A program made the position numbers and the translations under genes. Below are positions 3,170 through 63,715 of a DNA stretch of 64,000 nt, piece after piece. Position 1 is the first letter of the stretch. Each line of letters opens with the position of its first letter. Below the pieces are notes generated by a model. That model made no database searches. It saw nothing but the letters and a program-made list of their open reading frames with translations, and was not told the origin of the DNA. Origin of the DNA: Denitromonas halophila (GTDB lineage: Bacteria > Pseudomonadota > Gammaproteobacteria > Burkholderiales > Rhodocyclaceae); assembly GCF_007625155.1 (NCBI RefSeq), contig NZ_VMNK01000018.1:62001-126000 (forward strand), read 5' to 3'.

Positions 3170-3931
3170 TCAGTCGATAGAAGATGCGGCCGGCTCGGCC
3201 GCATCGATAAATTCGGGCAGGGCGCGTCCGAGCTGCCGGAGCCGCAAACGTGCGCCGCCCACATCGGGAATCACCTGCGCCACCAGTGCCCAGAAACGCG
3301 GCGAGTGATTCATGTGAACCCGGTGCGCCACCTCGTGCGCCACCACATAATCAATCAGGTCCGGGCTCAAATGAATCAGCCGCCAGTGCAGACGGATCCC
3401 GCGCGCCGAACAACTGCCCCAGCGCGTACGCGCTTGGGTCAACCCGACCGGCGGCACCGGCACGCCGATGCGCAAGGCAAACTCCGCCACCCGGCCTTCA
3501 AAGTAGCTCAGCGCCCGCGCCTGCAGTGCCCGCTTCAAGCACTCGGCCGGCGACTGCCGAGTGGTACAGCGCAGCATCAAGCACGCATTGTCATCAGCAT
3601 CTGCAGCTATCCAGCGCACCTCGGCCCGGCCCCGCGACAGCGTCAAACGGCATGGCGTGCCCATCAGGGGAAACGACAAATCATCGACAACCGCGAGTTT
3701 GGCCGCTTGAGGCCGTGCTGCCAGCGCGGTGAGTTTGTCGAGCACCCAGCGATCATGGGCCTTCAAAAAAGCCTCCACCGCCGAATGCGGGGCACGCAGC
3801 GGTGCCGCCACCGACAGACCGCGCCCGTCGATGGTCAGCCCGAGCGTGCGGCGCGCCGAGCGGCGCAGGTGATAACCGACCGGTCGGCCAAGCAGATGGA
3901 TCTGGTGCTGGCTGCGCAAGGCAGCGCTCAC
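3170..3931 (-). CDS. YgjP/SprT-like zinc metallopeptidase (DUF45, M48-type)
   Basis: Putative cytoplasmic zinc metallopeptidase of the YgjP family (253 residues). The C-terminal half carries the family hallmark: the RWGSC segment near 170-174, then the zinc site HEVAH at 199-203 followed by H209 in MNHSPRFW. No signal peptide is visible. Its start codon overlaps the stop of the upstream CinA-like gene by four bases (ATGA), so they are translationally coupled. Substrates of this family are not established; a role in protein turnover is only inferred. Confidence 0.88.
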
Positions 3932-59541: not shown

Positions 59542-62292
59542 ATGCGCGTGATCCGGCCCCTTCGCCGCCTCCTGAAGCACTTCGGCCTCGCCATGCTATT
59601 GGCGGGCGTCCTCGCTGCGGCCACCGAGGCGGTCTACAAGAATGCGCTCGATGCGCAGCGCGACCGCGTCTACGCCGAATTTCAGCTCGCCGCGGGCCAG
59701 CACATCGGCACCCTGCGCAAACGCGTCGAAGCCGTACTCGATCTGCAGCACCTGCTGGGCGACCATGTCGACGTGGCCGGCGCCGGCAGCGCAAAAGACT
59801 TCGAACAGATCAGCGGCTCGCTGATGCGGGTGCACACCTTCATCAAGGCCATCGCGCTGGCTGACGTCGACAACAGCGTCACCCCCCCGCTGCGCTTCCC
59901 CGCCCGCCATGTCGCCACCCGCGCCGCCTGGCCCAGGCCCGGCACCGATCTGGCCATGGAAGGCCTGCAAGCGCAGGAAGCCGTCCAGGCCGCGCTGCGC
60001 ACCGGCGCCATCATCGCCACCCCGCTGCTCAGCCCTGAGGCCGAAAACGGTGAAGGCATCCGCCTGTTCTCACGAGCGGGCCAACATGTACTCGGGATCT
60101 ACATGCACCTGAGCGAGCTGGCGCAAAGCACGCTCTGGGCCGGCATGGACCCCGACGCCCGCAACATGGCCTTCACCATTCTGGACACCACCACCGACCC
60201 GCGCAGCGCGCCCGAGGTGTACCGCGACACCATCGGTGACAACTTCGAGACCGCCTACGTTGAGGTCATCGAATTCGCCGCCCGGCGCTGGCTGATCATC
60301 GCCACCCCCACGCCCAAGCACTTCGAACTGGCGCCCGCCGCATCCATTGAGCGCCAGCGCGCCACCGGCTGGGCCATCACCCTCCTCGCCGCGCTACTGG
60401 TGGCCTTCCTGCAAACCCGCAACGCCGTCATCCGCGACCGGGTGCGCAGCAGCACCGCTGAACTGGCCGAAACCAACCGCATCCTGGCCGACACCAATGC
60501 CACACTGCAGGCCGAGGTCGCCCAGCGCACCGCCTCCGAAGCCGCCCTGCGCACCAGCACCACGCTGCAGCAAGCCATCTTGCACAGCGCCGACTACGCC
60601 ATCGTCCTCACCGACACCGACGGCATCGTCCGCGTCTTCAACCCCGCCGCCGAGAGCATGCTCGGCTGCGCCGCCGACCTGGTGGTCGACAAGCGCACCC
60701 CCATCGATTTCATCAACACGGCCGCCATGGCACGCATGGAACGCGCCACCGGCAAACGCGGCTTTGCCGCCGTGCTCGAGACCGCGCGGGGGCTCGCCAC
60801 GAGCGAACCCGTCGAGCTGGAACTGACCGGCGCCGACGGGCGCAACGTCCCGGCCGCCGTGTCGATCTCCCCGCTGCTCGACGCCCAGGACGGTCGCATT
60901 ACCGGCTATCTGGCCATCGCCTCCGACATCACCCACCGCAAAGCCGCAGAGACCCGTATCCTGCATCTGGCCCATTTCGACCCACTCACCGAGTTGCCCA
61001 ACCGCAGCCTGCTCGGCGTGCGACTCGAGTCCGCCCTCGAAGCCGCCGGTCGCTTCGAACAATCGCTCGGCGTCCTCTTCCTCGACCTCGACCGCTTCAA
61101 GAACGTCAACGACTCCCTCGGCCACCAGGCCGGCGACGCCCTGCTCAAAGCCGTCTCGGGACGCTTCCAGCACTGCGTGCGCGAGCAGGACACCGTGGCC
61201 CGCATGGGTGGCGACGAGTTCATCGTGGTGCTGCCCGAGCTCGAAAGCCGCCAGCACGCCGCCGAAGTGGCCGAGCGCATCGTCGAAGCCCTGAGCGCGC
61301 CCTTCGACATCAAAGGTCACCGCCTCACCGTCACCCCCAGCATCGGCATCGCCATCTACCCCGACGACGGCAGCACGGCCGACACGCTCATCCAGCACGC
61401 CGACGCCGCCATGTACCACGCCAAAGACGCCGGCCGGAACAACTACCAGTTCTACGAATCGCGCCTGTCCACGCTGGTGTCCACCCGACTCACCCTCGAA
61501 AACCGCCTGCGCCGGGCACTCGAGCGGCAAGAGTTCGAGCTCTACTACCAGCCCCAGGTCGACATCGCCTCCGGCGACTTCATCGGCCTCGAAGCCATGC
61601 TGCGCTGGAACGACCCCGACGAAGGCCCGGTCGAACCCGACGTCTTCATCCCGGTCGCCGAAGACAGCGGCCTGATCGTTCCCATCGGCGCGTGGGTATT
61701 GCGTACCGCCTGCGCCCAGGCTGAAGCCTGGCGCAGCAAACACCTCATCGACGTCCCCATGGCTGTCAACCTCTCGGCCCGCCAGTTCGACGAAGCCAGC
61801 TTGCTCGACATCGTAGCCGACGTCCTCGAAGACACCGGCCTGCCCGCCGATCGCCTCGAACTCGAGCTGACCGAATCGCTGATCATGCGCAACCCCGAAC
61901 TCACCGCCGACGTCCTCGACGGCGCCAAGCGGCTGGGCGTCATGATCGGTGTTGACGACTTCGGCACCGGCTACTCCAGCCTCGCCTACCTCAAACGCTT
62001 CCCCATCGACCGGCTCAAGATCGACCGCTCCTTCATCGCCGACATCGAAACCGAACCCGACGACGCCGCCATCGCCGAAACCATCATCGCCATGGCCCAC
62101 ACCCTGCGCATTCAAGTACTCGCCGAAGGCGTCGAAACCGTCGGCCAGCTACGCATGCTCCGCGGCTGGGCCTGCGACGCCTACCAGGGCTACCTGTGCA
62201 GCCGACCGCTGCCCGCGGATGACATGAACGCATTGCTGAAGGGATTGCGGGCAGCGCGCTTGTGCGGTTTGCCGGATGTGGGGCATACGTGA
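59542..62292 (+). CDS. CHASE-PAS-GGDEF-EAL c-di-GMP signalling protein
   Basis: Membrane-bound dual-domain protein of 916 residues. A first membrane segment (about 13-31) and a second (about 275-293, WAITLLAALLVAFLQ) enclose a CHASE-type periplasmic domain (FEQISGSLMRVHTFIKAIALADVD). A coiled segment, PAS (about 345-460), GGDEF (about 475-640) with intact MGGDEFIVVL near 556, and EAL (about 655-900) follow. In the EAL signature, Leu is replaced by Met (GLEAMLRW, near 684), but ELELTES, VDDFGTGYSSL and AEGVETVGQ are kept. Either activity is possible, so the net effect on c-di-GMP is not predictable. It is 70 bases after the NnrS-like gene. Confidence 0.94.
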   Translation: MRVIRPLRRLLKHFGLAMLLAGVLAAATEAVYKNALDAQRDRVYAEFQLAAGQHIGTLRKRVEAVLDLQHLLGDHVDVAGAGSAKDFEQISGSLMRVHTFIKAIALADVDNSVTPPLRFPARHVATRAAWPRPGTDLAMEGLQAQEAVQAALRTGAIIATPLLSPEAENGEGIRLFSRAGQHVLGIYMHLSELAQSTLWAGMDPDARNMAFTILDTTTDPRSAPEVYRDTIGDNFETAYVEVIEFAARRWLIIATPTPKHFELAPAASIERQRATGWAITLLAALLVAFLQTRNAVIRDRVRSSTAELAETNRILADTNATLQAEVAQRTASEAALRTSTTLQQAILHSADYAIVLTDTDGIVRVFNPAAESMLGCAADLVVDKRTPIDFINTAAMARMERATGKRGFAAVLETARGLATSEPVELELTGADGRNVPAAVSISPLLDAQDGRITGYLAIASDITHRKAAETRILHLAHFDPLTELPNRSLLGVRLESALEAAGRFEQSLGVLFLDLDRFKNVNDSLGHQAGDALLKAVSGRFQHCVREQDTVARMGGDEFIVVLPELESRQHAAEVAERIVEALSAPFDIKGHRLTVTPSIGIAIYPDDGSTADTLIQHADAAMYHAKDAGRNNYQFYESRLSTLVSTRLTLENRLRRALERQEFELYYQPQVDIASGDFIGLEAMLRWNDPDEGPVEPDVFIPVAEDSGLIVPIGAWVLRTACAQAEAWRSKHLIDVPMAVNLSARQFDEASLLDIVADVLEDTGLPADRLELELTESLIMRNPELTADVLDGAKRLGVMIGVDDFGTGYSSLAYLKRFPIDRLKIDRSFIADIETEPDDAAIAETIIAMAHTLRIQVLAEGVETVGQLRMLRGWACDAYQGYLCSRPLPADDMNALLKGLRAARLCGLPDVGHT

Positions 62293-62364
62293 GAAATGGC
62301 TGCCGGGCCGGTCGCGGCCTGTTTTGTTCGTCGTCCATCAACCGTTGAACTGACTTCGTCCATT

Positions 62365-62947
62365 CGTTGGCCGGGTCTCGCCCCGGCGGGCGAATGACTT
62401 CTTTGTCGCGACAAAGAAGTCATCAAGAAAACGCCCCCGACTGTGCCGCCGGCTTCGCCGGTGCCCTCTCTACGCCCGGCGCCGGCGGGTCGTGTCGCGA
62501 ACTCGCCCGGCGGGCTCAGACAGGCGACACGACAATTCCCGCCGTCGCCGTTCTCCGTTCGGCGGCACAGAAAGGGAGAAGCACGCGGGCTCGGCTTTGC
62601 CCTCGCCCGCCCCGGGGAGGCGCTTTGTAGGGCGGGTTTCAAACCCGCCATCGGTATTCGTTCGCAGGCCATTGGCGGGTTGAAACCCGCCCGACGCCCC
62701 CCCCTGTCGTTTCCGCTGTTGCCGGCGGGCACCCCATCCCCCTCTGTCGTGCCGAGCGCAGCAAGTGCGGGGCGGAAAAAGCGGCTTCGCTGTCTGAGCC
62801 CGCAGGGCGAGTTTGCGAAGTCGCCCGCCCCGTGCTTGCGGAGGGAGGGGAGCCCGAAGGGCCACGACAGTGGGGTGTGCTTCTTTGCCTATCTTTCTTG
62901 CACAAGCAAGAAAGTAGGTCGCCCGCCGGGGCGAGACCCGGCCAACG
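62365..62947. repeat. Composite palindromic element with perfect 29-bp inverted ends
   Basis: The ends 62365-62393 and 62919-62947 are exact inverted copies over 29 bases, beginning CGTTGGCCGGGTCTCGCC. Just inside the left end is a perfect 30-base palindrome (62394-62423) with arms ATGACTTCTTTGTCG; just inside the right end is CTTTCTTGC/GCAAGAAAG (62893-62914). Further in, GCGAACTCGCCCGGCGGGCT (left) reappears inverted as AGCCCGCAGGGCGAGTTTGC (right). A central pair GGGCGGGTTTCAAACCCGCC / GGCGGGTTGAAACCCGCCC lies at about 62630-62693. The open frames inside are by-products of the repeat composition. It is flanked by the GGDEF-EAL gene and the LEA gene. Confidence 0.75.
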
Positions 62948-62978
62948 TACGCCACCCGAAGCCCACAAAACCATCCTC

Positions 62979-63224
62979 TCAATAGCACTCACATCGCAAC
63001 GCCCCATGCCCTCGCATGCCAGCCGTCTGATTGGGTGGATATACATTGACCAACCGGCCAGCACGATTCTCAGTTGAGCACCGCGCAACACACGAGGCTG
63101 CCTCACTCGGAGCCTCTCTTAGTAAGTACAAAGCCAAAAGAACAACGCCTATCACACCGCCAAAGACCATGGCCACCACGACGCCTACCGGCAATCGGTG
63201 CTCAAGTTCGTGCACCGGCTGCAC
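62979..63224 (-). CDS. Possible small single-span membrane protein
   Basis: An 81-residue frame whose GTG start overlaps the stop of the upstream LEA-like gene (TAGTG), suggesting translational coupling. It has one clear hydrophobic segment (VGVVVAMVFGGVIGVVLLALYLL, about 12-34) and then a polar tail with four cysteines and no recognisable motif. The region is less G+C-rich than its surroundings. It may be real, or the remnant of a larger gene truncated by the adjacent repeat element. No homologue is recognised. Confidence 0.3.
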   Translation of the reverse strand: MQPVHELEHRLPVGVVVAMVFGGVIGVVLLALYLLREAPSEAASCVARCSTENRAGRLVNVYPPNQTAGMRGHGALRCECY

Positions 63225-63715
63225 TAGAACCGACTCGTCCCCGCCGGCACCCCCAGATCCGCAAAATCCACCTCGCCCTTCTGGTCGAAAGGCACGCCGC
63301 CGAACAGCCCCCCAGTGTAGAGCGTGCCGTAAATCCGGTAGTCGATTCGCTCCTGCCCCTTGGCCATGGCGCCGAACTGGCGCAGCAGGCCAGAGAGCGA
63401 ACTGACGGCCTCCACCTCCAGCATGGCTTCGCTGAGTCGCGGCACGGTGACGGCCTTGTTGCTCACCCCTTTGGCGAAGGGCTTGCCGTTGAGCTCGACG
63501 GTGAAGCTCAGGCCGTCGACCGGGATCTCGGCATCGTTGGGGTTGAGCACCCGCAGGCTGAGGCCGAAGCGTTGTTCGAGCAGACCAACGTTGAGCAGGC
63601 GCAGGTCGGACACCGACACCTCGGGCGGCTGCATGTTGAGCGGCAGGCTGGCGCAGGCGGCCAGGCCGAGGGTGGCTAACGCGACGAGTGCGGTACGGCG
63701 AGTGATGTGATTCAT
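63224..63715 (-). CDS. LEA type 2/WHy-domain lipoprotein
   Basis: A 163-residue putative lipoprotein. The signal peptide ends in a lipobox (LGLAAC, Cys near 21); the mature part is a WHy/LEA-14-like beta domain (VSDLRLLNVGLLEQRFGLSLRVLNPNDAEIPVDGLSFTVELNGKPFAKG, VPRLSEAMLEVEAVSS). Such domains occur in desiccation and stress proteins; the bacterial function is unproven. Its start overlaps the stop of the reductase gene by four bases. Confidence 0.87.
   Translation of the reverse strand: MNHITRRTALVALATLGLAACASLPLNMQPPEVSVSDLRLLNVGLLEQRFGLSLRVLNPNDAEIPVDGLSFTVELNGKPFAKGVSNKAVTVPRLSEAMLEVEAVSSLSGLLRQFGAMAKGQERIDYRIYGTLYTGGLFGGVPFDQKGEVDFADLGVPAGTSRF

Follow-up and report, generated by a model that had tools for sequence, protein, structure and literature searches.

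Inverted arms of a structured repeat in Denitromonas and its relatives frame swapped genes at some sites

The stretch of DNA that we analysed, here called the window, comprises 64,000 nucleotides of a Denitromonas halophila contig (NZ_VMNK01000018.1, positions 62,001 to 126,000; assembly GCF_007625155.1). Near its right end, a gene for a PAS-GGDEF-EAL protein and a gene for an LEA_2-type protein converge on a structured intergenic repeat unit (Table 1). An earlier note, made from the sequence, had described this unit as 583 bases without a gene, with perfect 29-base inverted ends, a perfect 30-base palindrome in one end, a different hairpin in the other and two further inner inverted pairs. 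All of these features can be read from the sequence: the ends are identical at 29 of 29 positions, the terminal arms as reported extend beyond the perfect 29 to 41 nucleotides at 88%, and the open reading frames of 87–180 amino acids that cross the unit in several frames are, in our judgement, not gene-like. Because about 20 further outer bases are conserved among copies, the limits of the unit lie at about 62345–62967 and not at the 29-bp ends. As a single RNA strand this stretch is predicted to fold almost end to end, 16 standard deviations below 20 dinucleotide shuffles, none of which folded as well (0/20). No Rfam family reached the gathering score between 61500 and 64000.

Table 1. Features of the window unit and its neighbours, in window positions
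Feature	Position	Strand	Description
Left neighbour, PAS-GGDEF-EAL protein	59542..62292	+	Pfam EAL 4.3e-74, GGDEF 3.2e-53
Whole unit	62345..62967	.	583 bases plus about 20 less conserved outer bases per side; CTTCG 62354-62358, CGAAG 62957-62961
Left arm (module Lend)	62365..62610	+	Recurs as a module in own genome and relatives
Left terminal inverted repeat	62365..62393	+	Partner of 62919-62947
Left hairpin 1	62378-62393		TCGCCC-CGGC-GGGCGA, within left terminal inverted repeat
Left hairpin 2	62394..62423	+	Perfect 30-bp palindrome; stem covaries among copies
Purine tract AAGAAAA	62425..62431	+	Near mirror image of 3' purine strand of left hairpin 2; possible third triplex strand
Outer inner inverted pair	62464-62523 / 62790-62849		73% identity
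Middle	62611..62725	.	Holds GTAG-type REP pair 62627-62695; genes or other content here in other copies
Inner inverted pair	62627-62645 / 62677-62695		89% identity
Right arm (module Rend)	62726..62947	-	Recurs as a module
Mirror purine tract of right hairpin 2	62886-62880	-	
Right hairpin 2	62893..62914	-	CTTTCTTGC-ACAA-GCAAGAAAG; 9-bp stem, ACAA loop
Right terminal inverted repeat	62919..62947	-	Hairpin 1 at 62919-62934
Right neighbour, LEA_2-type protein	63224..63715	-	Pfam PF03168 1.3e-20

The window copy is a gene-free member of a larger family. As the earlier note had anticipated, there are other copies: in its own genome (G000; 4.39 Mb in 34 contigs) the 583 bases match five further places over their full length at 76–84% identity, additional partial matches occur as separate left (1–246) and right (362–583) parts, and the middle gives short matches elsewhere. 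A 27-base end pattern with one degenerate base is found 24 times in this genome, 22 copies being exact to TTGGCCGGGTYTCGCCCCGGCGGGCGA and 2 having one mismatch; ends with two or three mismatches were not found there. These 24 ends make up nine two-ended units, one extra partial left arm inside the unit at a site that we call A, and five single arms; none of these units and arms carries a recognised transposase of its own. In the case of contigs C5 and C11, the single arms probably belong to one and the same site, C, which the assembly has cut in two, since their flanks resemble those in the relatives G001, G004 and G006. Each copy consists of two outward-facing arms, with near-invariant ends of 25–27 bp and covarying hairpins, that enclose a variable middle, and the arms are modules found in varied combinations.

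Of 41 genomes searched, 13 contained matches, nine of them in the genus Denitromonas. The arm-richest relative, G008, has 67 arm matches; at four of its loci (L087–L090) the arms form tandem arrays of alternating orientation, with about 80–110 bases between arms. An exact 23-mer was found in the own genome alone among 369 in a class sample and in 4 of 121 in a family sample, and, among the matches listed, in many named Comamonadaceae and Zoogloea records. Twenty genomes from named records, picked for already holding a site, had 1 to 22 sites each with up to two mismatches. Facing end pairs (up to four mismatches) were present in 25 of 80 named loci among the matches listed, some of them from Denitromonas; 22 of these pairs are spaced 397–723 bp apart and three more than 1 kb. 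The unit belongs to a repeat family that is widespread in Denitromonas and related bacteria (Comamonadaceae, Zoogloea). Phages gave zero matches to the unit, and the plasmid search, which returned one weak match of the window unit in Variovorax (29% covered) and two matches over 10–11% of a Rubrivivax stretch, gives no sign of the unit travelling on plasmids. The unit may resemble often misannotated open reading frames of Burkholderiales and Pseudomonas. Searches of open-licence PMC papers found no paper on DUF1534 and no published description of this repeat unit, although the latter is not proof of absence.

The ends are the most constant part of the family. In G000, G001 and G009 the end core begins with 20 bases at 1.8–2.0 bits per base, a value that is partly by construction because ends were selected by the end pattern, and the next 30 carry 1.2–1.6 bits; the 20 bases outside the end carry 0.5–1.1 bits and those further out 0.1–0.4. 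The raised values outside the ends of G008 (0.5–1.3 bits) reflect the repetition of its arm arrays. A wider list of 177 ends was likewise found with the end pattern and includes many orthologues, so that its conservation too is partly by construction. Hairpin 1 occurs as a variant with paired changes in 6 of these ends, and hairpin 2 has at least 9 Watson-Crick pairs in 158, as 74 distinct stem-loops. Among 24 unique ends picked for their loop sequence, hairpin 2 shows changes on both sides at 9 of its 14 pair positions, and 93.5% of cells are paired versus 81.4% with shuffled 3' halves (0/1000 as good). A second class, of 18, has changed on both sides at 7 of 13 positions, again with 0/1000 shuffles as good; a small class of 5 unique sequences gave no covariation support (213/1000 shuffles as good).

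Next to hairpin 2 lies a purine tract that mirrors the purine strand of the hairpin. Across 40 distinct pairs of strand and tract, the mean mirror score exceeded that of all 5000 permutations, whereas the direct-repeat score of the same pairs was reached by 3549 of 5000; pair by pair, the mirror score was better in 19, worse in 7 and tied in 14. Mirror-matched runs of 6–8 bases were present in 141 of 147 scorable ends, the other 30 of the 177 being unscorable (19 with stems of fewer than 9 pairs and 11 without two purine runs); 6 bases is the rule in Denitromonas, and named loci reach 8. The order of pyrimidine strand, purine strand and mirror purine tract is that of a class II intrastrand triplex, and the tract could possibly form the third strand of such a triplex.

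The earlier note had read the perfect identity of the ends as a sign of recent mobility or gene conversion. Identity of the ends is not in itself a sign of recency, since 22 of 24 ends are exact while the arms of the own genome are 82–97% identical to those of the window unit, which points to constraint or homogenisation. Exchange or conversion between units is nevertheless visible, because the window unit is 97% identical to a G001 copy at another site, J, and 89% identical to the G001 copy at its own site (99% to the same-site copy of G009). The earlier note also took the two differing end hairpins as possible marks of recombination between related units; the two kinds of hairpin 2 belong to two kinds of arm, each present in many copies.

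The more notable copies are found at other sites of the genome, where arms of the same kind frame places of gene swapping. Five Denitromonas genomes (G000, G001, G004, G006 and G009) share the position of both arms and similar flanks at each of two sites, A and B, but have a different, AT-richer stretch between the arms; in a sixth, G003, the two sites are visible in part only. By eye, site A follows an RND efflux gene. In 20 of 20 pairwise comparisons, which are between species and between arm-bearing sites and so leave any effect of the arms on turnover rate outside their reach, the two sequences stay similar into the left arm, then lose their similarity, and regain it within or close to the right arm. 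Counting only pieces longer than 60 bases, left-flank similarity runs 243–588 nucleotides into the unit before the break in all 20 pairs; the point at which it resumes lies 207–233 nucleotides from the right end for 16 pairs and 261–414 nucleotides for the other 4. Set against arm lengths of about 245 (left) and 206–222 nucleotides (right), these values place the breaks at or just inside the arm edges. The longer left matches take in the REP pair adjoining the left arm, and in G000 and G004 unit A contains an additional partial left arm with a REP copy, which gives rise to some further inner matches.

The enclosed stretches at A and B have a GC content of 0.44–0.57, compared with 0.62–0.65 for the whole stretches examined. 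An all-against-all BLASTP of 30 proteins from six genomes, assigned to the cargo of sites A, B and C, gave one weak match, between sites (24% over 63 amino acids, E 0.009), and no match within a site. At site A we find an HNH protein in G000 (Pfam 1.3e-10), a PH-domain match in G001 that is weak and falls short of the curated cut-off, a membrane-like protein in G004, a protein without a family in G006 and a TIR-domain protein in G009 (TIR-TM 1.2e-60), and in G003 a BRCT-domain protein runs to the contig end. Site B holds a protein with an HNH region like that of CBASS effectors in G000 (PADLOC 1.4e-28), unclear open reading frames in G001, a very weak AbiC-like match in G004 (E 0.06), a protein without a family in G006, a protein in G009 that combines a zinc ribbon and a CARF-PDDEXK-like nuclease part (PADLOC 4.9e-12) and, in G003, a membrane-like protein adjoining a partial right arm. 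Site C carries a match to MTase_II (5.2e-109); in G000, G003 and G009 this site is seen only in part, owing to contig ends or to the absence of a second arm from the stretch examined. Several cargo open reading frames belong to no recognised family, and some are possibly not genes at all (L062).

Gene-bearing units also occur outside the genus. Four longer end pairs of Curvibacter PAE-UM (1.6–2.2 kb) enclose AT-richer open reading frames (L248, L249), an IS30-type transposase (L247) or both (L250). A 5.3-kb end pair of Rubrivivax M015S1 encloses a 1272-amino-acid MmeI-like type IIG enzyme; a second Rubrivivax pair, of 2.2 kb, has no clear gene. Judged by homology, some of the cargo clearly belongs to defence families. 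We do not claim an enrichment of defence genes, because PADLOC at E 1e-5 matched 9 of 29 cargo-assigned proteins (5/10, 3/9 excluding the armless locus L231, and 1/10 by batch), one of the nine, a Fic gene, sitting outside the arm pair, versus 2 of 10 ordinary window genes.

Trees of the ends do not cleanly track the sites. The left arms of A, B and C fall into two types split at 100/100, and each site holds both types in different genomes. The right arms partly sort by site, with three of five site-B right arms separating at 96/96, and the right arms of all three sites lie inside one 100/100 clade. In G001, the left flank of site B is duplicated around a RhuM/Fic-type gene that adjoins the arm unit (L245:2023-2256 and 3404-3706), as if a cassette had entered carrying a piece of flank.

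The unit also varies at further sites. At the window site, the right arm lies toward the left flank in G001, G003, G004 and G006 and the left arm does so in G000 and G009, an opposite order which indicates that the unit has been turned or replaced; about 500 bases separate the arms in G001 and G004, and G006 retains fragments only. Site J has an arm unit in G001 and, in G000 and G009, a RAYT-type gene with its own REPs and no arms (L258:816-1304 on own-genome contig C26 and L259:818-1324, with REPs of GTAGGGCGGATAAGCG type). A RAYT gene of the L258 type was found by protein search in 8 of 10 genus genomes, with a weak Pfam match in L258 only. Another RAYT-type gene of the own genome (L033:1315-1908, contig C29) is flanked by its own REP, of GTAGGGTGCAATAACCGAAGGGCATTGCACC type, and REPs of this type also lie between the left arm and the cargo in several arm units (L020, L021). 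Arms are absent from site F in G005 and G007, where the flank pieces are 61 and 28 bases apart, and from site K in G000, G002, G004, G005, G007 and G008, the armless state at both sites being recognised by the short spacing of flank pieces. By eye, site F lies between two genes of the same direction and site K between convergent genes; in G005, site K is a short spacer with a terminator-like hairpin. Searches with joined flanks found no match across the W, A, B or F junctions in 13 genomes and, for K and J in 10 genomes, nothing beyond overlaps of a single base where the element ends in G001 itself.

We consider it on balance likely that the family is a non-autonomous structured repeat whose arms serve as borders for the exchange of gene cassettes, as in the minimal mobile elements of Neisseria. 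In all five genomes the gene-bearing units occupy the same two sites, A and B, and similarity breaks at the arm edges, which fits exchange in place. Dispersed arms would act as borders for cassette exchange by homologous recombination, the ends, whose two hairpins and potential third strand (the purine tract) are structures of single-stranded DNA, might stall replication and invite repair, and the gene-free unit could be copied between sites by gene conversion or by an enzyme acting in trans; this border role, the enzyme and the route are inferred. In the Neisseria elements, as outlined in the relevant passages of PMC3898611, different whole-gene cassettes lie between conserved genes and are incorporated solely by homologous recombination. 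Sites A and B similarly have a fixed place between conserved genes and whole-gene cassettes that differ among relatives, an arrangement that the cargo-free window copy does not share. Unlike the elements described in those passages, the border here includes a dispersed, inverted and structured pair of arms, and recombination is the probable rather than the observed route.

A bolder form of this explanation, which we regard as unlikely as it stands, would make the family an integrase-free platform for cassette exchange, in which inverted arm pairs with ends folding as single strands, into hairpins and an intrastrand triplex, are specific exchange sites at which Burkholderiales swap single genes in place, defence genes included. 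The closest structural parallel is the class II purine intrastrand triplex TM_ECO, whose sites have been linked to local genome variability in E. coli by a mechanism not known, to go by the parts of Holder et al. 2015 (PMC4666352) that treat it. Both have a pyrimidine strand, a purine strand and a mirror purine tract, are intergenic and sometimes form inverted pairs. In contrast to TM_ECO as characterised there, the ends here are A/G-rich rather than G-rich, have 6–8 matched positions known from sequence, and sit in a 0.6-kb unit able to frame genes; in the Comamonadaceae type the first loop, between the pyrimidine and purine runs, is 8 nucleotides long, whereas the TM_ECO search used loops of 1–6.

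It is possible, though we find it doubtful, that a transposase encoded elsewhere recognises the ends and moves both empty and gene-bearing units, as with a MITE or mobile insertion cassette. The unit does have terminal inverted repeats without a transposase of its own, its ends are near-invariant while the arms diverge, units are present or absent at F, J and K, and the nearest relative of the window copy, outside its G009 sister, is a copy at a different site. The likeness extends to Correia elements, with 26 bp terminal inverted repeats and a length of 100–155 bp in the account within PMC3898611: inverted repeats of similar length, no transposase gene and an intergenic place; the unit differs from that account in its length of about 580 bp, in showing no target duplication and in framing genes at some sites. 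In the mobile insertion cassettes MIC231 and qnrD mic, as sketched in PMC3913671, inverted repeats likewise bracket a passenger gene without a transposase, but here neither a target duplication nor a helper IS with matching ends was found in the sequences examined. Target duplications are not visible in the flanks or by comparison with the armless site F, although the bases beside the ends have diverged. Gene-bearing units remain at A and B in five genomes. Transposase genes do lie between some ends, each in a single unit, and look like later insertions; we take them to be of IS3 type (L230, L064) and IS30 type (L247, L250), with Pfam domains in three of the four. The two IS30-type genes of Curvibacter (L247:4799-5920 and L250:1514-2656) lie directly at the end hairpin of their arm units, and this IS may target hairpin 2. 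For the gene-free unit, transposition in trans is possible.

That the family is an ordinary structured intergenic repeat, such as a terminator, a processing site or a decaying repeat, with turnover between the arms coincidental in busy intergenic spots, seems to us improbable. The window unit does lie between convergent genes, as by eye does site K, and it folds strongly. Site B also varies without arms: the armless G005 has an unrelated gene there, an HTH/IrrE-type gene (L231:89-1264) matching RmrA in PADLOC at 5.6e-25. Against coincidence, breakpoints lie at or near the arm edges in every pair compared at A and B, and the right arms of A, B and C share one clade; site F, moreover, lies between genes of the same direction, and the window unit has no Rfam match.

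The REP/BIME-type element driven by a RAYT, proposed in the earlier note, is very improbable: the ends are palindromic, the arms of G008 alternate in arrays, a REP pair is nested in the middle of the window unit and a GT(A/G)G head lies one base inside of hairpin 1 in 30 of 177 ends (the window right end included, other heads being found in the rest), but the flanks examined of the three own-genome RAYT-type genes contain no arm (L032, L033, L258, L262), RAYTs occur in G002 and G005, where arm matches are few or absent, the unit exceeds a REP about 20-fold in length, and a RAYT is unlikely as the mover since the arm-richest G008 has none by Pfam or protein search. A REP as defined in PMC2817692 has a GT(A/G)G head in front of a GC-rich palindrome, and GTAG-type REPs are nested within the far longer unit, which resembles REP/BIME in its interspersed palindromes.

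If the arms are indeed borders for cassette exchange, as we favour, they would provide a sequence tag with which to find, in Denitromonas, Curvibacter, Rubrivivax and their relatives, sites of gene swapping and candidate defence genes of unknown type. They would also make testable the proposal, as put forward in the part of PMC4666352 concerned, that intrastrand triplex repeats are a source of local variability in bacterial genomes.
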